DNA from: Rhodoferax sp.
GTDB lineage: Bacteria > Pseudomonadota > Gammaproteobacteria > Burkholderiales > Burkholderiaceae_C
Reading direction: 5' to 3'
Assembly: GCF_013297935.1 (NCBI RefSeq)
Contig: NZ_JAAFIX010000001.1
Coordinates: forward strand, 124,001-188,000
Length of the DNA: 64,000 nt
Shown: piece after piece, positions 27,191-34,143 of the stretch
How positions within the stretch are numbered: position 1 is the first letter of the stretch
How the letters are laid out: each line of letters opens with the position of its first letter
Made by a program: the position numbers and the translations under genes
The notes under the pieces: generated by a model
The model's database searches: none
Seen by the model: only the letters and a program-made list of their open reading frames with translations
What the model was told of the DNA's origin: nothing

Positions 27191-27239
27191 TAGCGGCTTG
27201 CGCATACTTCATGAGGGCTAGAGGCCTATTTCATGTGAA
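27187..27239 (+). repeat. Dispersed gene-end repeat, copy 1
   Basis: Begins at the lrp stop (TGATAG) and runs GCGGCTTGCGCA...GAGGGCTAGAGGCCTATTT. Outer arms and inner AGC/GCT pairing give an imperfect hairpin. Confidence 0.8.
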
Positions 27240-27312
27240 ATTCAAGTCTCAGCTCAATGCGTAGTCATATCGGATAAAGCCATGGTGCTTGGCCACACGG
27301 TCATACAGACCT

Positions 27313-27954
27313 CTACCCCTTGATCCTTTGCTGCACCAGCGCAGCCATGTGCGCAGCCGCATCGCCCGCTTGGCCCCCCAATCCTGCGGCTACGCCCCGC
27401 TGGTCCGCCGCCGGGCGATTCTGGCTCACCTTCCACTTGCCGACCCAGCGCTGCACCGGAATCTCGATACCGACGATGGCGCGCAGCATTTTGGAGATGT
27501 AGTCGGCGGGTGCGTCCGACACCTGCCAAGGGTGGGCCTGACCCGACTCATGGGTCTGGGTCAGCCGCGTCACGATATCCAGCACGCGTGCTTCATCGTC
27601 AAACACCTGCGGGACACCATGGGCATGCACCGTGGCGTAGTTCCAGGTCGGCACGGCCATGCCGTTGGCCTGTTTGCTGGGGTACCAGTTGGGCGACACA
27701 TAGGCCTGCGCACCCGTAAAGACCGCGACCGATGGCGCCCCTGCTGCCAGCGCCTGCCACACCGGATTGGCGCGGGCAACATGGCCGACCAGCGTGCCGT
27801 GTTCGCCGCGCTCCACGTCCAGCAACATGGGGATGTGGTTGACCAGCAATTCCCCCTCATGCTGCACGACCCAGGTGGCCAGCGGATGGGACCGCACCAG
27901 GGCGTGCAAGGTAGCGACGTCGGTCTCAGCAAAGTGGGAGGGCAGGTAGGTCAT
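27313..27954 (-). CDS. FMN-binding negative regulator PaiB-like
   Basis: 213 aa with the PaiB family signature: N-terminal YLPSHFAETD, then LLVNHIPMLLD, the FTGAQAYVSPNWYPSK segment and VPTWNYATVHAHG. The fold binds flavin in a split-barrel; B. subtilis PaiB represses sporulation and protease genes, while the function in proteobacteria is unclear. The ATG at 27954 is preferred over a TTG 9 bases upstream. It diverges from a MocR-type regulator across a short palindromic region. Confidence 0.87.
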   Translation of the reverse strand: MTYLPSHFAETDVATLHALVRSHPLATWVVQHEGELLVNHIPMLLDVERGEHGTLVGHVARANPVWQALAAGAPSVAVFTGAQAYVSPNWYPSKQANGMAVPTWNYATVHAHGVPQVFDDEARVLDIVTRLTQTHESGQAHPWQVSDAPADYISKMLRAIVGIEIPVQRWVGKWKVSQNRPAADQRGVAAGLGGQAGDAAAHMAALVQQRIKG

Positions 27955-27972
27955 GGTGAACAAGCGTGCTGG

Positions 27973-28025
27973 TAAATTGGCTCTTCAGTTTATAAACTTT
28001 CTTATATAAATAAAGAGCCAATTTA
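27973..28025. promoter_or_regulatory. Palindromic operator region between paiB-like and mocR genes
   Basis: A perfect 13-bp inverted repeat, TAAATTGGCTCTT at 27973-27985 and AAGAGCCAATTTA at 28013-28025, encloses a 12-base palindrome AGTTTATAAACT at 27987-27998 and a TATATAAATAAA stretch that may supply -10 elements. The symmetry and the divergent genes fit a MocR autoregulatory and target site. Confidence 0.65.
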
Positions 28026-28027
28026 AA

Positions 28028-29500
28028 GTGATTCAAAGAACCATTGCGCCCGACCAGATGCCGCCCCACAAGCCCCGCAGCGGGAGTGTGCGGCAGCAGG
28101 TCTATCTGGAGCTGCGCCGCGCCATGGAGCAAGGCACCTTCAAGCCGGGTACGCGCCTGCCCGCGTCACGCGATCAGGCCAAGACGCTGGGCGTCTCGCG
28201 TAACAGCGTGTTGTGGGCGCTGGAGCGCTTGCAGTCCGAAGGTTATGTCGTGGCGCGTGTGGGCGATGGCAGTTATGTGGCGGACAACCTGGGCGCATTG
28301 GCGTCTTCGGGCGCGGCAGCCCAGGGATTGCGTCCCCCCGTTACCGCAGGCCTGTCACAGCGTGGGCGCCTGGTTGCCGACACGGTGCTGCGTTGGAACC
28401 CTCCCTTGCAGCCCGCGCTACCCTTTCGCATTGGTGCACCCGAGATCGCCACGTTTCCCTTTGCGGTGTGGGACCGGTTAGCGCGCCAGGCCTCCAAGGA
28501 GCAGCGCATGGCACAGGCCCAGTACCTGGACCCTGCCGGTTCACCCGCGCTGCGCGACGCGGTTGCACAGTGGCTGTGGGCGTCGCGCGGCATACGCTGC
28601 GAAGCCACCCAAATCGTCATCTGCTCGGGCTCGCAACAAGCTATTGACTTGGTCGGCCGGCTGCTGTTGGATGTGGGCGATGAAGCCTGGGTAGAAGACC
28701 CGGGCTACCCCGGCATACGCGCCAGCCTGGTCGGTCACGGCGTGACGGTGCGCCCGGTGCCGGTGGACCGCGAAGGCGTGGTCGTGGAGCAAGCCGCATC
28801 CCTGTGGCCCGCCGCCCGGCTGGCGGTGGTGACACCCACCTCGCAATTCCCCACCAGCGTGCGCATGAGCCTGCCCCGCCGCCTGGCCTTGCTGGACTGG
28901 GCCAACGCGCAGCAGGCTTGGGTGGTGGAAGACGACTACGACGGGGAGTTCCAGTACGGCACACACCGCCTGCCCGCGCTATGCAGCTTGCCCCATGCGC
29001 AGCGCGTGCTGTATGTGGGCACCTTCTCCAAAACACTGCACCCCGGCTTGCGCCTGGGTTTCATCGTGCTGCCGCACGCACTGGCCGGCGCCTTCGCGAT
29101 GGCCCGTGCGCTGACCGACCGCCACGCGCCCGGCGACGCGCAAGACGTGCTGGCCCGCTTCATCACCGAGGGGCATTTGCTACGGCACCTGCGCCGCATG
29201 CGCGAGCTGTATCCGCAGCGCCAGAAAGTCTTGATCGAGGCCTTGGCAAAGGCCAGCCAAGGGCGCATGGTGTTGCAGCCCAGCGAACAAGGCTTGCACC
29301 TACTGCACGAACTACCGGGGGGCCAGGACGACCTCGCGTTGTCCGCACGTGCCGAGCAGGCAGGCTTGATGCTGGCGCCGCTGTCGCGTTACGCCATCGC
29401 GTCCCAACGCAGGGGATGGCTGTTGGGTTACGCGGGGTACGACGGGGTGGCGCTGCGCAAGGCTGCCGCCACGCTGGGTAAATTGCTACTAAATAGATAG
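28028..29500 (+). CDS. MocR-type transcriptional regulator (GntR + aminotransferase-like)
   Basis: 490 aa. GntR winged helix at residues ~18-85 (LRRAMEQGTFKPGTRLPASRD, LGVSRNSVLWALERL) and an aminotransferase-like domain with SQQAIDL, EDPGYPG and the PLP lysine region YVGTFSKTLHPGLRLGF. It starts with GTG at 28028; an ATG 30 bases later is possible. Only 73 bases separate it from the divergent paiB-like gene, which is the obvious target. The last codons (LLLNR) and the stop lie within a copy of the dispersed repeat. Confidence 0.88.
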   Translation: MIQRTIAPDQMPPHKPRSGSVRQQVYLELRRAMEQGTFKPGTRLPASRDQAKTLGVSRNSVLWALERLQSEGYVVARVGDGSYVADNLGALASSGAAAQGLRPPVTAGLSQRGRLVADTVLRWNPPLQPALPFRIGAPEIATFPFAVWDRLARQASKEQRMAQAQYLDPAGSPALRDAVAQWLWASRGIRCEATQIVICSGSQQAIDLVGRLLLDVGDEAWVEDPGYPGIRASLVGHGVTVRPVPVDREGVVVEQAASLWPAARLAVVTPTSQFPTSVRMSLPRRLALLDWANAQQAWVVEDDYDGEFQYGTHRLPALCSLPHAQRVLYVGTFSKTLHPGLRLGFIVLPHALAGAFAMARALTDRHAPGDAQDVLARFITEGHLLRHLRRMRELYPQRQKVLIEALAKASQGRMVLQPSEQGLHLLHELPGGQDDLALSARAEQAGLMLAPLSRYAIASQRRGWLLGYAGYDGVALRKAAATLGKLLLNR

Positions 29501-29540
29501 CTTCTTGCGCAATATCTGCTAGGGCTAGAAGCCTATTTGG
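29486..29540 (+). repeat. Dispersed gene-end repeat, copy 2
   Basis: GCTACTAAATAGATAGCTTCTTGCGCA...AGGGCTAGAAGCCTATTT. It contains the mocR stop codon. AAATAG and CTATTT arms pair. Confidence 0.8.
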
Positions 29541-29548
29541 CACCAAAA

Positions 29549-30979
29549 CTACCGCAACACATCCCGCTTGAACTTAGGCACTTCTTTCACCCACGCCTTG
29601 AGCGCGGTGGCCCTTTGCACCACGGCGCTTGCAATCTGCTGGACCAGCGCGCGCTCGGTCTCGGTGTAGACGGTGTCTTCGGCTTGCAGCGGGGCTTGCA
29701 CGAGGGCCGCACTGCACAGGCTATCCAGCTCACGGGCAAAAAAGGCTCGGGGTATGCCGCAGCGCTCGCACAGGTCGGCCAATGCAAACGACTTCACCCC
29801 GTCCAGCGCGAACACATCGCCAAACGCCATGGCCAGCTCGTGGTCAATAGCGTTCGCGGGGTACTGCATCACACTGACGAGGTCATACAGCTCCGCCACA
29901 TTCAAGCCCGCCCGACTCACATGAAAGGAGATGTTTTTGCCATGCGCATCGCTATTGCCAAGGAGTAGCGTGGTGGCGGCCCACAGCACCAGCCGCTGCA
30001 TGCCAAGGGCAGGAGTTTCCAGATGCGCTCTGGCCGCAAAAATCTTCTCAAAACTGGCGCCATCGCGGATGTGCGCTACGTCTGCCCCGCTCCCCAGGTT
30101 GCGCTCGTATTTAGCGGCTGGCGGCAAATCTGCCACCTGGCAGCCGTCAATGATGTGCAGCCGCTGCTGCGCGGCCAAGGCCAAGGTTTCCCCCGTAGGT
30201 TGGCCACTCGCGTCTACCACCTGCGCGTGCTGCACCTGGCCGGTGGGTGCGCGGTCAAAGCGCTTCACCACCAGCACGGGCGATGGAACTCGCACGATAG
30301 ACACTTCGGCCACATGCCGCTGCCCGTAGCGCTGCTGGCTGATGCGCCCTGCCAGCTGCATGCAAAAGTGCTCGTTGGCCACCATGCATGGCAGGCTTGC
30401 GCTCAGCGGCTCGGGCTTGAGGATGTGGGTCGACGGCACCGCCCCATCCGCCAACCACCAGCGCCCGTCGTGCCAATGGGCCAACAGCTTGTCTTGGTAA
30501 CCGGCAATTGACATGCGCACCTTGCCGTCCCACACGCTGAACGGCACCTGGGCACGAGCGGCAATGCGCTGCGCCAACTCGTCGGGCGATAACTCCCGCG
30601 CCACAGCGGGCAAGGCTGCGGGCCGCTGGCCTGCGGGCAAAAAGCTAAGCCCCCCGGTCGTCTCTTGGCCCAAGTAGCGAATCAGGCCGAAGATGTTGTT
30701 CTTTTGGATGCTGGTGTGCGTGGACGCCACGTCCAGCGCCCGCCCCTCGGGCAACAGGTTTTCTAGAAAGCGGCGTATGGAATGCGAATCCGCCGCCCGC
30801 CCCAAAGGCAAGTGCGGGGACAAGGCATAACCCACCACCGAAGACTGCCACCCGGCGGTGTACTGCAGCGCAAACCGGTCCGCCTGCGGGTCCAGGGCCA
30901 CACGGGCCACGGCTTCGTTGCCCGAAAAAATGTCCAAGGCGTAGTTCAGGTTGGGCAAGGCAAACAGGTCGTCGTTCAT
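29549..30979 (-). CDS. hipA: HipA-family toxin kinase
   Basis: 476 aa from ATG 30979, normal for HipA (about 440 aa). N-terminal HipA_N subdomain with LLPEGRALD; autophosphorylation/ATP loop MSIAGYQDKLLA; catalytic lysine region STHILKPE; LVVKRFDR; catalytic loop GNSDAHGKNISF and a DFG-like LYDLVS. HipA proteins phosphorylate aminoacyl-tRNA synthetases such as GltX and can induce dormancy. Its start overlaps the hipB stop by 4 bases, the usual antitoxin-first order. All visible catalytic motifs look intact. Confidence 0.88.
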   Translation of the reverse strand: MNDDLFALPNLNYALDIFSGNEAVARVALDPQADRFALQYTAGWQSSVVGYALSPHLPLGRAADSHSIRRFLENLLPEGRALDVASTHTSIQKNNIFGLIRYLGQETTGGLSFLPAGQRPAALPAVARELSPDELAQRIAARAQVPFSVWDGKVRMSIAGYQDKLLAHWHDGRWWLADGAVPSTHILKPEPLSASLPCMVANEHFCMQLAGRISQQRYGQRHVAEVSIVRVPSPVLVVKRFDRAPTGQVQHAQVVDASGQPTGETLALAAQQRLHIIDGCQVADLPPAAKYERNLGSGADVAHIRDGASFEKIFAARAHLETPALGMQRLVLWAATTLLLGNSDAHGKNISFHVSRAGLNVAELYDLVSVMQYPANAIDHELAMAFGDVFALDGVKSFALADLCERCGIPRAFFARELDSLCSAALVQAPLQAEDTVYTETERALVQQIASAVVQRATALKAWVKEVPKFKRDVLR

Positions 30980-31284
30980 GGCAAGGGCTCCGCAGGTGCA
31001 GCCAGCGCGGCAATCGACGCTTCGGTGGCATGGGCCAGACTGGCCGGCACAGCAAACAAATGCAAGCCCAGGCCTTGCAGCACCAGCAACAAGCGGTCCA
31101 CGGTAATGGCCTTGCCGTTTTCTAACCGAGAGAGCACGTCGGCCGACACGCCGCACAGCGCCGCCGCATCGTCAATGCGCAGCCCGTGCCGCACCCGCTG
31201 GTTACGCACATGGATGCCCAGCCCCGCCAGATCGAGAATGTGTGGAGTCGGGTCGGCAGCGAGCGCGTGGAGTTTGCGGGCCAT
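30976..31284 (-). CDS. hipB: HipB-like XRE-family antitoxin
   Basis: 102 aa with an HTH_XRE domain (IHVRNQRVRHGLRIDDAAALCGVSADVLSRLENGKA, given here as the span ~24-59). It should bind and neutralise HipA and repress the operon. ATGA overlap with hipA couples translation. Upstream AT-rich repeats are likely operators. Confidence 0.85.
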   Translation of the reverse strand: MARKLHALAADPTPHILDLAGLGIHVRNQRVRHGLRIDDAAALCGVSADVLSRLENGKAITVDRLLLVLQGLGLHLFAVPASLAHATEASIAALAAPAEPLP

Positions 31285-31299
31285 TGTTTCGCCTTACAG

Positions 31300-31343
31300 G
31301 AATAATTAACGAAATGGCGATGATAGAGAATTAATTACGGAAT
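31300..31343. promoter_or_regulatory. Possible HipB operators
   Basis: Two similar AT-rich elements, GGAATAATTAACGAAAT (31300) and AGAATTAATTACGGAAT (31327), spaced 27 bases start to start just upstream of hipB, followed by AATAATTATT at ~31349. Their position suits autoregulation; no other gene explains them. Confidence 0.4.
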
Positions 31344-31419
31344 ATCAAAATAATTATTCTCACACGACGAATGGATCGATTGTTTTGGATGGACGAAACA
31401 ATTTTTAACAGGCCTTCAC

Positions 31420-31556
31420 GCCCGAAGTGATGGAGTCCTGCCGCGCATCAGCGGTGATGTGGGTGACCTGCTCAAAGTCGCGGCCACCGACTGTGCGGGC
31501 GACAACCACGTGCACAAACGCCTGGTCAAGAACACCACGGCGCTACCATTGTGATA
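31420..31556 (+). pseudogene. Decayed 3' fragment of an Lrp/AsnC regulator gene
   Basis: The DNA aligns with the 3' part of the lrp-type gene at 27008-27190. In the best frame it reads RISGDVGDLLKVAA, then KRLVKN and directly TTALPL-stop, matching RMSGDVDYLLKVVA ... KRLIQN ... TTALPL of that gene. About 50 bases between KRL-N and TTALPL are deleted and a frameshift separates the PEVME start. No start codon or HTH half remains. Its stop is followed by repeat copy 3, exactly as the intact gene is followed by copy 1. Confidence 0.8.
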
Positions 31557-31602
31557 GCGTCTCGCGCATATTCCATAAGCGCCAGAGGCTGATTTGTCTC
31601 TT
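31550..31602 (+). repeat. Dispersed gene-end repeat, copy 3
   Basis: Follows the lrp fragment: TGATAGCGTCTCGCGCATATTCCATAAGCG... then CCAGAGGCTGATTT; a diverged copy. Confidence 0.65.
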
Positions 31603-31672
31603 AAACGGCTTGATTGCATCGGGTGGCGTCAAATCCCCGGTTGCAGAAACAAAGAGCGCGAATCACCCGCTT

Positions 31673-31875
31673 GGGGGATGTTTGGTACTTGGCAACGCAA
31701 TTACACTGAAACCCAACTGCTGCCGGGTTTGGCAGTTTTTTAAATCACGATTGACGGCAATGGAACATGCCGAAAATCCAGTGCCCATGGGGCGTTCAAT
31801 GGAGATCAGATGTCCAATTTATGGAGCAGTGATCAACTTATAGAGCAGGGTTTGCTCTGGACATTGCGTTAGACG
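31673..31875 (+). repeat. Left arm of ~200 bp inverted repeat (integron-like leader)
   Basis: The sequence from GGGGGATGTTTGG to GTTAGACG recurs in inverted form at 32861-33061 with small indels and scattered substitutions. It ends in GTTAGAC (31868-31874), a match to the integron core site GTTRRRY, 2 bases before the first small gene. It contains a hairpin AGAGCA/TGCTCT at 31842-31858 and a conserved 20-codon reading frame. Confidence 0.85.
31810..31872 (+). CDS. Putative 20-aa leader peptide in left inverted-repeat arm
   Basis: ATG at 31810 with GGAG five bases upstream; reads MSNLWSSDQLIEQ and ends LLWTLR, with the TAG stop inside the GTTAGAC core site. The mirrored copy at 32864-32926 differs in four residues with no indel and two silent changes, while the DNA further upstream has indels. 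This resembles the short leader frame in attI1 of class 1 integrons, which helps translate the first cassette. Translation is unproven. Confidence 0.45.
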   Translation: MSNLWSSDQLIEQGLLWTLR

Positions 31876-31876
31876 A

Positions 31877-32311
31877 ATGAAAAAAGACTCTCTAATTGCC
31901 CTTGCCTTCTGGGCGGCTGTAATTTTTCTAGTGTACGGAGTAACCCGTGGCGCCTTCGTCATGATCGGTTTCATCGCCGTGTTGGTGGCAATTGCGGACT
32001 ACTTCGGCACTAGAGACCAGCGTAAGCCGCCATCCACTTCCGAACGCACTCTCGCACACCTTTGGGTTTGGCTCAGGCGCGCAGTTTGTTGGCCCATAGG
32101 TGGCCTTTTAGTGTACCGAAGCGTCTACAGTCTGCTACCTTCAGAAGTCGCAGGCGATGCACCATCTTGGCTGGTGAGACTATTTGGCGTTTTGCTTGGA
32201 GTTCTCTTTATCTACATTGGTTTCGTTGGTCAGGGCAACGATCGATCTGCGCTTCGAGATGACATTAAGCTACACAAAGAGAACAAGCGCAGGTACAAAT
32301 TATGGTTCTAG
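31877..32311 (+). CDS. Small membrane protein of unknown function (cassette-like gene 1)
   Basis: 144 aa with about four hydrophobic helices (ALAFWAAVIFLVYGV, MIGFIAVLVAIADYF, VCWPIGGLLVYR, LFGVLLGVLFIYIGF) and charged ends. I recognise no family. It starts 2 bases after GTTAGACG and ends 7 bases before an attC-like site, with no ribosome binding site of its own, the layout of an integron gene cassette. AT content is higher than in neighbouring chromosomal genes, which supports transfer. Confidence 0.65.
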   Translation: MKKDSLIALAFWAAVIFLVYGVTRGAFVMIGFIAVLVAIADYFGTRDQRKPPSTSERTLAHLWVWLRRAVCWPIGGLLVYRSVYSLLPSEVAGDAPSWLVRLFGVLLGVLFIYIGFVGQGNDRSALRDDIKLHKENKRRYKLWF

Positions 32312-32318
32312 ATCAAGT

Positions 32319-32398
32319 GCCTAACATTTCGCTCGGCTAGGACACGCAGCAGCAGAAAACCGCTTCGCGGCGCTTGCTGCGCGATGGAAGGGTTAAAC
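32319..32398 (+). other. attC-like recombination site (59-base element) between two convergent genes
   Basis: 80 bases bounded by GCCTAAC (32319-32325, RYYYAAC) and GTTAAAC (32392-32398, GTTRRRY). The inside is a quasi-palindrome: CGCAGCAGCA pairs imperfectly with TTGCTGCGC and the tip reads CCGCTTCGCGG, as in many attC sites. The small genes on either side both end within 7 bases of it. Both boundary motifs match in either orientation, so direction is ambiguous. Confidence 0.75.
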
Positions 32399-32404
32399 GA
32401 CACC

Positions 32405-32851
32405 TTACTTCGCGACAAAGTGGAAGTGCAGATACGTTACATGCTGCAGGGCCGGGCCATTCGTGTAGAGGCGGTAGTTGAGCACACCCTCACGTTTGGC
32501 AAGTTCTCTCGCAAGCGCGAAACATCCCAGTACGTACGGCGAGTCTTCTGGTTGCAGTTCAAGAATGTTTCGAACGTCTCGCTTTGGAAAAAAGACAAGA
32601 TGCACCCGCCCTTCTGGCCTCGGGTGCTTGACCGCGACGCACTCGTTCGACTCACCGACGGAAGGAATAAGGTTCGACGTTTGCTGAATAACTGCCGACG
32701 CGAGCAACCCAACGAGGTCATTTGGCTTGTAGCAGCTACTTTCGCATGTAGATGCGGCAAGGAATGACCTCGGGATCGTTCTTGAGAAGAGCCAACCACC
32801 AAGAGCGATTCCGACAGCAAACGTGATGGCGATTGATATGGCGCGGCGCAT
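32405..32851 (-). CDS. Membrane-anchored HIT-like domain protein (cassette-like gene 2)
   Basis: 148 aa. Residues ~5-24 are a hydrophobic anchor or signal; residues ~80-148 resemble a histidine-triad domain (VHLVFFPKRDV, LARELAKREGV, YRLYTNG, VTYLHFHFVA). The triad H-x-H-x-H appears as Y140-L-H142-F-H144: the first His is Tyr, the presumed nucleophile position H142 is kept. The gene starts 10 bases after an inverted GTTAGAC core and ends 6 bases from the attC-like site. HIT hydrolases act on nucleotide conjugates; this one is unassigned. Confidence 0.6.
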   Translation of the reverse strand: MRRAISIAITFAVGIALGGWLFSRTIPRSFLAASTCESSCYKPNDLVGLLASAVIQQTSNLIPSVGESNECVAVKHPRPEGRVHLVFFPKRDVRNILELQPEDSPYVLGCFALARELAKREGVLNYRLYTNGPALQHVTYLHFHFVAK

Positions 32852-32860
32852 GGGTCGTGG

Positions 32861-33061
32861 CGTCTAACGTAATGCATAGAGCAAACCCTGCTCTATAAGT
32901 TGGTCACTGGTCCATAAACTGGACATCTGATCTCCCTTGAAAGCCCCATGGGCACTGGATTGTCGGCATGTTTCATTGCCTTCAATCGTGATTAAAAACT
33001 GCCAAACCCGGCAGCAGTTGGCTTTCAGTGTCATTGCGTTGCCCGCTGCCAAACATCCCCC
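32861..33061 (-). repeat. Right arm of ~200 bp inverted repeat (integron-like leader)
   Basis: Inverted partner of 31673-31875. Read on the minus strand it runs from GGGGGATGTTTGG to GTTAGACG (GTTAGAC at 32862-32868) and leads into the HIT-like gene. The two arms enclose 985 bases with two convergent genes and one attC-like site. No obvious target-site duplication flanks the arms. Confidence 0.85.
32864..32926 (-). CDS. Putative 20-aa leader peptide in right inverted-repeat arm
   Basis: Mirror copy of the 31810 frame: MSSLWTSDQLIEQ...LLYALR, with GGGAG upstream and the TAG stop in the GTTAGAC core. Same length, no indel relative to the left copy. Unproven as a translated peptide. Confidence 0.45.
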   Translation of the reverse strand: MSSLWTSDQLIEQGLLYALR

Positions 33062-33285
33062 AGCGTGCCAGGCAGATTCCCCGTTGAGCCTCACAAATGC
33101 CCCCCTCCGGTAGCACAAAGTGCTCCGCAATAGGTCTCCTCATTGTGATCGTGATTTTGGCGACCATTGCTCATGCGGCGGACAATCCAAGCGTCAGCAA
33201 TAGCGCCGCGCTGGGCAAATTGCTACCAAATAGATAGCTTCTTGCGCAATATCTACGAGGGCTAGAGGCTTATTTCTCTTAAAAC
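33062..33285. other. Non-coding scar with a short mocR 3'-end remnant
   Basis: No gene is supported here. At 33203-33232 the DNA (GCCGCGCTGGGCAAATTGC...) matches the last ~30 bases of the mocR gene at 28028-29500 (A-A-T-L-G-K-L-L-L-N-R) and, like it, runs straight into a copy of the dispersed repeat. The remainder is unrecognised. Confidence 0.5.
33220..33277 (+). repeat. Dispersed gene-end repeat, copy 4
   Basis: GCTACCAAATAGATAGCTTCTTGCGCAATATCT... then GAGGGCTAGAGGCTTATTT; nearly identical to copy 2. Confidence 0.8.
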
Positions 33286-34143
33286 TCAGGCCTCAACCGT
33301 CACCCGCCCCTGCGCGTAACGCCCATCCCCGCGCTGGAACACCTTGTCATCCAACAAAACATCCCCCGGCACGTAGCTAGGGCCGCTGTTCAGCCGCTCG
33401 TAGATCGGGTCAAAGTCAATGCGAGCAAGGGCCAGCAGGTCGTCCAAGCTGTCGAGCACAAAGTAGCACTCCTGAAAATCGTCGATGCGGTAGTGGGTGC
33501 GCATGACGCGCTCTAGGTCAAAACCGATGCGGTGGGGCGAAGCGCTTTGCACCGAGAACGCGCTCTCGGTAAAGCTGGACGCAATGCCTGCGCCATAGAT
33601 GCGCAGCGCCTCTTGCGCACCGCCCTCGCCCTGCACCTGCTCTTTCACCAGCCCAAACTCCACCGTGTACCAATACACGCGCGCCAACTCGGTGAGCTTG
33701 CCGATGCGCTGCGCGCGCAGCCCCGCCTCGCCATAGAGCTGGATGAAGTCCGCCATGACCGGGTGCATGAGCATGGGCACGTGGCCGAACACGTCGTGAA
33801 ACACATCGGGCTCTTGCAGGTAGTCCAGCTGGTTTGCACTGCGGATGAAGTTGCCGCTGGGGAAGCGGCGGTGGGCCAGGTGCTCAAAAAACACCTCGTC
33901 AGGCACGAGGCCCGGCACGGCCACCACCTGCCAGCCGGTGCGCGGCTGCAGCACTTCGTTGAGCGCCGCAAAGTTGGGGATTGCCTCCGCGCTCAGGGGC
34001 AGCGCTTGCATGCCCTCCACAAACTCGCGGCAAGCCAGGTGCGGCAGCAGCGCGGTCTGGCGCTCAAACAGCGTCTTCCACACCGCGTGGTCTTGGGCGC
34101 TGTAGTGCTCCCAGCGCTGGGGGATGGTGTGGTCGTGTGCCAT
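33286..34143 (-). CDS. phhA: Phenylalanine 4-monooxygenase
   Basis: 285 aa, the usual length of bacterial monomeric phenylalanine hydroxylases. Iron ligands are in FHDVFGHVPML (two His) and VEFGL (Glu); the pterin-binding region RFPSGNFIRSANQLDYLQEPD is present (span given in short form as PDVFHD). It converts phenylalanine to tyrosine with tetrahydrobiopterin and O2. The start at 34143 (MAHDHTIPQRWEHY) fits the family. It is the last gene of a run hpd-VOC-fahA-phhA on the minus strand, 13 bases after fahA. The pterin dehydratase phhB is not in the window. Confidence 0.93.
   Translation of the reverse strand: MAHDHTIPQRWEHYSAQDHAVWKTLFERQTALLPHLACREFVEGMQALPLSAEAIPNFAALNEVLQPRTGWQVVAVPGLVPDEVFFEHLAHRRFPSGNFIRSANQLDYLQEPDVFHDVFGHVPMLMHPVMADFIQLYGEAGLRAQRIGKLTELARVYWYTVEFGLVKEQVQGEGGAQEALRIYGAGIASSFTESAFSVQSASPHRIGFDLERVMRTHYRIDDFQECYFVLDSLDDLLALARIDFDPIYERLNSGPSYVPGDVLLDDKVFQRGDGRYAQGRVTVEA

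Follow-up and report, generated by a model that had tools for sequence, protein, structure and literature searches.

An apparent mirror-image relic integron with a chimeric attC site in a Rhodoferax genome

RESULTS

Two inverted arms enclose two convergent genes

The locus lies within a 64,000-nucleotide stretch of a Rhodoferax sp. genome (contig NZ_JAAFIX010000001.1, positions 124,001 to 188,000), which was analyzed as a whole and is referred to here as the window. Two arms in inverted orientation, at positions 31672-31875 and 32861-33062, pair without gaps over 138 nt and again over 69 nt, at 91% complementarity in both blocks; aligned with gaps, the arms are 90.4% identical over 198 nt. The left arm (31672..31874, plus strand) consists of an outer portion of ~135 nt followed by an attI site ending in the core GTTAGAC and is orthologous to six copies in five congeners; the right arm (32862..33062, minus strand) is an inverted copy of it. 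A motif scan placed the two core recombination sites at 31868..31874 (plus) and 32862..32868 (minus). Gene A (31877..32311, plus), encoding 144 amino acids read from the sequence as a predicted membrane protein, and gene B (32405..32851, minus), encoding 148 amino acids with HIT/DcpS_C domains, start 2 and 10 nt, respectively, from their cores and converge on one attC-like element at 32319-32398. The initial annotation had described inverted arms of ~200 bp, each ending in GTTAGAC, with genes 2 to 10 bases from the core converging on a single attC-like element, and in these respects it was borne out. The motif occurs at two places only in the window, the inner end of each arm; since this count equals chance expectation (2 vs 2.2; not significant), its weight comes solely from its position at the end of a conserved attI.

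Gene A matched no Pfam or NCBIfam family over cut-off and had eight homologues in a very large protein set, the best of which (P0001) is 90% identical and is encoded on a 1.65-kb metagenome contig, while the protein search with gene B gave 117 matches, itself counted. Both genes sit directly after attI cores, where an integrase would have put cassettes, and the R'' boxes GCCTAAC and GTTTAAC lie 6 to 7 nt beyond the stops of genes A and B. At one of four loci found, in a Rhodocyclaceae metagenome-assembled genome (L085), a homologue of gene B lies between a GTTAGAC core and, past the gene, an attC-like site, as judged by eye. This cassette-like setting, together with the gene evidence, makes A and B plausible cassette genes.

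The inner part of each arm corresponds to an integron attI

Judged by homology, the inner ~65 nt of each arm is a Comamonadaceae integron attI. The identification comes from arm homologues located ~110 bp from integron integrase genes in six other genomes (G228, G341, G006, G409, G438 at two loci, and G446); in the first three, the integrase gene ~110 bp away is full length and has the opposite orientation. The arm, taken as a whole in the initial annotation, is not a single unit: attI is confined to the inner part, and the outer ~135 nt was found in the arm's own genome and, among congeners, in five, with a 26-nt piece of it in G461. In a family sample of 399 genomes the arm query matched 15 genomes in 13 genera (own genome and genus counted), outside the genus by the inner part only. 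Matches were found in 19 of the 103 genomes of a genus sample (own genome counted), that of G461 being limited to the 26 nt of the outer part. An order-wide sample gave matches in 2/399 genomes, namely, the arm's own and one already known from the family, and the attI was present in 9/67, 1/18, and 2/26 genomes of three further genera.

An integrase gene lies close to few of these sites. A survey of 16 other congener genomes, covering matches to E 1e-35, with G217 taken from a separate profile search, placed one within ~200 bp of 4 of 23 attI copies, at ~113 bp (G409, G438 twice, and G446), one of the G438 intI genes being in two pieces. For the other genera of the family sample the figure was 3 of 19 within ~200 bp (matches to E 1e-20); weaker integrase remnants or contig ends may hide further cases in both counts. 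In the genome under study, no gene in the window, nor any in the whole genome, exceeded the family cut-off for the integron integrase (TIGR02249), extending to the genome the initial annotation's statement that the window holds none. The sole match listed (E 1e-20) reached 80 bits against a cut-off of 265 and covered model positions 245-302 (58 positions). Of the components of a complete integron, the locus thus has an attI site, recognized by homology to intI-adjacent sites, and no intI beside it.

Within its own genome the arm occurs at two places only, the mirrored pair, and no second such pair was found in that genome, in the family (399) or genus (103) samples, or in the three further genera among the matches listed. 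The full arm was absent from the plasmid and phage records searched: the plasmid search gave one partial match, of attI only, in Simplicispira suum (NZ_CP027671.1), the phage records gave no match to the arm, and a 32-base exact scan of viral contigs gave none. The two arms are each other's closest relatives (90.4% identity vs 81.5 to 86.4% to other copies; support, 0.96), so the right arm was either copied within its own lineage or brought from a near relative. The ~10% difference between them implies that the fusion is old or that a diverged copy was brought in. As a single strand, the attI region folds better than shuffled sequence (z scores, -4.0 and -4.6).

Whether the outer portion might derive from the 5' end of intI and its promoter by decay was tested. 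The spacing of GGGTTT...TTTTTA is similar in the alignment, but a profile of the non-attI part scored only three of eight arms, at 0.7 bits (reached by 2/300 shuffles) and -1.1 and -3.0 bits (0/300 each); the other five gave no score. Both arms carry inward-pointing terminator-like hairpins upstream of attI, at 31719-31741 (plus) and 33015-32998 (minus). Terminator-like sites number seven in 31500-33300, vs 2.3 in shuffles, and such hairpins could shield the cassettes from outside transcription. No promoter-like site was found in 31500-33300, and an Rfam scan of 31400-33300 gave nothing near a gathering score (one match, E 3.2).

A short leader frame runs into the attI core

Each attI of the window contains, behind a Shine-Dalgarno sequence, a leader open reading frame of 20 codons whose TAG stop falls in the core: 31810..31872 on the plus strand (MSNLWSSDQLIEQGLLWTLR), preceded by GGAG at 31801-31804, and 32864..32926 on the minus strand (MSSLWTSDQLIEQGLLYALR). 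An ATG or GTG stands at the aligned place in 43 of 44 attI copies, mostly after a purine-rich stretch (by eye). Of the 43 copies kept, 35 have 63 nt from start to core codon and 8 have 66 nt; no other length occurs, and the core codon is a stop in 31 (TAG in 21, TAA in 9, and TGA in 1). The start codon and the frame up to the core are thus retained, giving a leader like ORF-11 of class 1 integrons. Among the 63-nt leaders, 34/35 are open, compared with a mean of 22.8 and a maximum of 31 in 2,000 random-substitution controls; the G225 copy has an internal stop. However, frame 2 is also open in 31/35, and shuffling letters within columns leaves 29.2/35 open on average, so openness alone weighs little and the 63/66-nt length rule weighs more. 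Substitutions are spread evenly over the codon positions (85, 98, and 84), giving no sign of selection on the leader amino acids. From this pattern, it seems to be the frame, rather than the peptide, that is kept.

The leader stop precedes the gene start by 4 nt (gene A) or 12 nt (gene B). A leader that is preceded by a Shine-Dalgarno sequence and terminates within the core would explain why the genes lack ribosome binding sites of their own. ORF-11 of attI1, as outlined in PMC8876359, similarly takes its stop from the cassette core and couples translation to cassettes without an initiation region.

The central attC site reads as two 5' halves

The covariance check that the initial annotation had proposed for the attC-like element came out significant. 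A model built from seven 87-bp attC sites of relatives found a single strong attC in 31000-34000, at 32319-32398 on the plus strand (33.7 bits, E 5e-8, filters off); the same site scored 6.7 bits on the minus strand (E 2.5), and the next match in the interval (12.7 bits, E 0.049) lay inside a hipB-like ORF. Strict-rule pattern scans had missed the window's own site, which the covariance model recovered. The model also found attC sites in the congener single-arm loci L093 (a training sequence), L092, L089, L055 (E 0.0024), and L091 (E 0.9), with no match at E 1 in L090.

On its 3' side the central site is short of seven model positions, and many pairs are broken. Positions ~32319-32381 would correspond to the attC of gene A minus its 3' end, and the last 17 nt (32382..32398, minus strand; GTTTAACCCTTCCATCG) to the inverted 5' end of an attC belonging to gene B (compare L148:621-689). 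As a single strand, the site folds no better than shuffles (z scores, -0.74 and 0.10), which the broken 3' half could explain.

A leave-one-out classification of attC halves was run on 27 sites picked by eye from 44 scan hits, 17 having been dropped as unlike attC or near-duplicates (some near-duplicates remained among the 27). Its assignments were correct in 27/27 and 27/27 cases. The left end of the window's site scored +18.4. Reading inward from the right end gave +9.8, and the 3' halves of the 27 sites ranged from -26.9 to -11.2; the right-end value (positions 8-24) falls below the range of the true 5' halves of these chosen sites, 12.6 to 24.0. Because choice by eye could flatter the test, it was repeated with rule-chosen and unselected sets. 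Fifteen sites chosen by a core rule were classified correctly (15/15 and 15/15), and with this set the right end scored +14.3 (positions 8-17) and +9.2 (positions 8-24), inside the 5' ranges of 3.4 to 16.1 and 5.8 to 22.4. With all 44 hits, likely false sites included, 37 to 39/44 and 38 to 40/44 assignments were right, and the right end (+13.1 and +10.0) exceeded every 3' half (maxima, 6.0 and 7.0). The same held for the 28 sites left after near-duplicate removal, where 20 to 21/28 and 23 to 25/28 were right and the right end reached +11.3 and +9.1. Random sequence attains the right-end score in 1.6% (positions 8-17) or 9% (positions 8-24) of draws, and 3' halves with half of their bases replaced do so in 0.12% or 0.8%. 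That the central site is chimeric, a fusion of two attC 5' parts of which the second amounts to ~17 nt, is strongly indicated by these scores. With both ends reading as attC 5' halves, the unit would consist of two attI-cassette units joined tail to tail.

The locus in congeners and its flanks

A single arm occurs at the orthologous site in five congeners, in six copies (G217, G403, G417, G406, and two contigs of G427). Behind the arm come one to three cassette-like genes and a downstream gene common to all, which encodes a biopterin-dependent aromatic amino acid hydroxylase (PF00351); in G217, an Lrp/AsnC regulator gene lies upstream. In all six copies the left-arm homology extends outward past the arm, to 31526 in four, to 31575 in G403, and to 31609 in the second G427 contig. 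No integrase match lies adjacent to any of the six. An integrase gene over cut-off is present elsewhere in the genomes of G217 and G417, and none was found to E 1e-35 in G403, G406, and G427. By these comparisons, the left arm is the ancestral one, an integrase-less attI platform common to the congeners. A second, inverted arm is shown only by the genome under study among those searched.

The inserts differ almost throughout. In an all-versus-all comparison of the seven (attI and right flank trimmed), shared cassettes were found only between G417 and G427 contig 326; three other matches, of 53 to 64 nt, fall in attC regions, and the 12 insert-encoded proteins (G427 contig 326 left out) had no match to one another. 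The single assembly of G427 contains, at the orthologous locus, two arrays that differ from each other, so the raw material for a fusion of two such units exists.

The empty sites whose search the initial annotation had recommended were found among the congeners: in G407 and G399, the two flanking genes stand side by side with no integron. The search covered seven arm-less congeners, among which G349 has another upstream gene and the four remaining loci do not cover that side. An intergenic repeat of ~55 bp is present on both sides of the integron (right copy, 33215..33280; left copy, ~31544-31600; relation judged by eye) and as one copy at the empty sites L118 and L121 (by eye), so the entire integron may be gained or lost by recombination between the repeats. 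The outer sequence beyond the right arm (33063..33215) was found in the genome under study alone, 1 of 103 in the genus, with 33050-33215 as the query.

Three observations concern the left flank. Where congeners continue to the Lrp/AsnC gene, positions 27231-31411 of the window hold a MocR/PdxR-like regulator gene and a hipBA-like pair. The Lrp/AsnC gene is represented in the window by 3' pieces only (31411-31595). G403 (L089, 9989-19082) has ~9 kb between the Lrp/AsnC-side sequence and the arm, unlike the other congeners.

A terminal inverted repeat linking the right flank of the congener copies to the arm's outer terminus was considered as well; it was convincing by eye and failed against shuffles. 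Its score was reached by 24 of 1,000 shuffles in G217, 771 in G403, 93 in G417, 163 and 542 in the two G427 copies, and 924 in G406, the flank of G403 and of the second G427 contig having been cut at a slightly different motif.

DISCUSSION

The data are best accounted for by a relic integron in which two integrase-less attI-cassette units became fused in inverted orientation, tail to tail, probably by an illegitimate event, each half probably still being an expression unit; we give this reading a probability of roughly 0.68. We infer the following order of events, from the loss of the integrase at the locus to the illegitimate joining and its consequence for expression. A chromosomal integron of the genus would have lost its integrase gene and kept its attI beside the biopterin-dependent hydroxylase gene, and this integrase-less attI would have come to carry different cassettes in different species. 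A segment comprising attI, gene A, and the 5' part of its attC would then have been fused to the inverted 5' end of a second segment comprising the attC of gene B, gene B, and attI. The fusion may have been palindrome or replication driven rather than made by an integrase. An integrase cuts at the GTT of the core; the two segments meet within the attC hairpin rather than at a GTT crossover, so the fusion was probably illegitimate. In each half, probably still functional in expression, ribosomes would load at the Shine-Dalgarno sequence of attI, read the leader of 20 codons, and reinitiate at the cassette gene, immediately past the leader stop in the core. The rearrangement seems to have happened once: no other example of such a mirror-image relic integron with an apparently chimeric attC was seen among the relatives searched. 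What survives of the initial annotation's integron-like mirrored unit is its integron nature, the mirrored pair of attI-plus-cassette units, and the one central attC, though not its reading as a carrier. Its suggestion of an inversion product of a former integron came close, the left arm being the shared platform and the right arm an inverted copy of it, with joining by fusion favored over inversion. As for its option of a site where an integrase acts on both ends, the genome has no integrase gene over cut-off, yet A and B occupy the places directly behind attI cores that integrase insertion would have given them.

The most serious alternative, unlikely but deserving some weight, reverses the order: the mirrored attI pair came first, an integrase inserted gene A on the left and gene B on the right, and the two facing attC sites collapsed into a hybrid. 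Both genes begin directly behind a GTTAGAC core in attI and look as if they had entered there, the ~10% divergence of the arms is compatible with an old pair, and a chimeric attC is the expected product of palindrome collapse by deletion. However, no arm-bearing congener has a pair without the central fusion, and the host genome has no integrase gene over cut-off.

We consider it improbable that the locus is a working two-ended integron, in which an integrase acting in trans would load either end, flip the segment, and swap the genes behind their leaders, the attI being a docking site shared across the genus. Were this so, the integrase could come from a plasmid or from integrase genes like those present elsewhere in two of the five congeners. 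The two cores being identical and inverted, the segment could in principle flip if an integrase entered the cell.

That integrase-driven inversion produced the second arm, or that a second platform was inserted at a secondary core site, is more doubtful still. According to PMC4792948, DNA flanked by inverted attI1 sites in a laboratory construct is inverted by IntI1, with a 72-fold increase when integrase is present; integrase-dependent inversions at secondary sites also occur, according to PMC10127599; and both cores at our locus read GTTAGAC. Against this, the join in the center does not coincide with a GTT crossover, and an attI × attI inversion needs both sites beforehand and so cannot create the second arm. 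The present case also differs from that construct in involving natural sites of another integron family and a genome with no integrase over cut-off, and a flipped form was not seen.

Very little speaks for the mobile cassette carrier of the initial annotation, that is, arms acting as the terminal repeats of a MITE-like or transposon-like element that moves cassettes as a block. The outer ends of both arms stop at about the same base (GGGGGATG) in different surroundings, and the G217 right flank resembles the inverted arm end at the shuffle frequency given above; in the other five congener copies, however, 93 to 924 of 1,000 shuffles reach the right-flank score, and the left-arm homology runs outward into the flank in six of six. 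No target duplication was seen by eye at the unit ends, the genomes searched contain this one pair rather than the unit at several loci, and no plasmid or phage record searched has the full arm. MITE-flanked integrons, or integron mobilization units, have similar repeats at both ends of their cassettes; the arms described here differ in containing attI, in pointing inward, and in the continuity of the left one with its flank in relatives. Finally, plain decay, with A as a cassette with a degraded attC and gene B plus the right arm as an unrelated neighbor, can hardly be credited: the attC does fit the plus-strand model best with its 3' part missing, but gene B abuts an attI core on one side, has an R'' box 6 nt past its stop on the other, and has a homologue in the cassette-like setting seen by eye in L085.

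The locus shares features with several described systems and differs from each. As in the attI1/ORF-11 arrangement of class 1 integrons, in the account given by PMC8876359, attI is followed by a cassette and contains a short ORF with a Shine-Dalgarno sequence and a stop in the GTTRRRY core; the window's leaders, likened here by description, have 20 codons, and there are two inverted platforms and no integrase. The CALIN and In0 categories of IntegronFinder, as defined in the text of PMC9024848, likewise denote integron remains missing one component, a CALIN being a cluster of attC sites (by default at least 2) and an In0 requiring an integrase. The present unit fits neither, as it keeps attI and one chimeric attC, the single significant attC in 31000-34000 falling short of the two or more, without integrase, of a CALIN. 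Fused cassettes, as portrayed in PMC4670013, also have a cassette attC that is partly lost, but here the fusion is tail to tail and the second half is inverted with its own attI.

No natural mirrored attI pair or tail-to-tail attC was found among literature titles and abstract openings, a scope outside which most subscription journals lie. An inverted attI pair was otherwise known to us only from the laboratory construct in PMC4792948, and the pair described here is apparently natural. It provides a defined locus at which DNA inversion by integrons in nature could be examined.

The presence of different arrays at a shared site that has no integrase beside it is relevant to the question of integrase action in trans; the movement of entire loci from one species to another would also lead to differing arrays. 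One congener (G400), whose genome is in one contig, has two attI and several attC-like sites (L094 and L095) and no integrase match to E 1e-35. Among loci in which intI and attI are together, the intervals between the two in L005, L008, L012, and L069 hold a palindrome such as AACTGTATTTTTATACAGT, which resembles the consensus of a LexA box.
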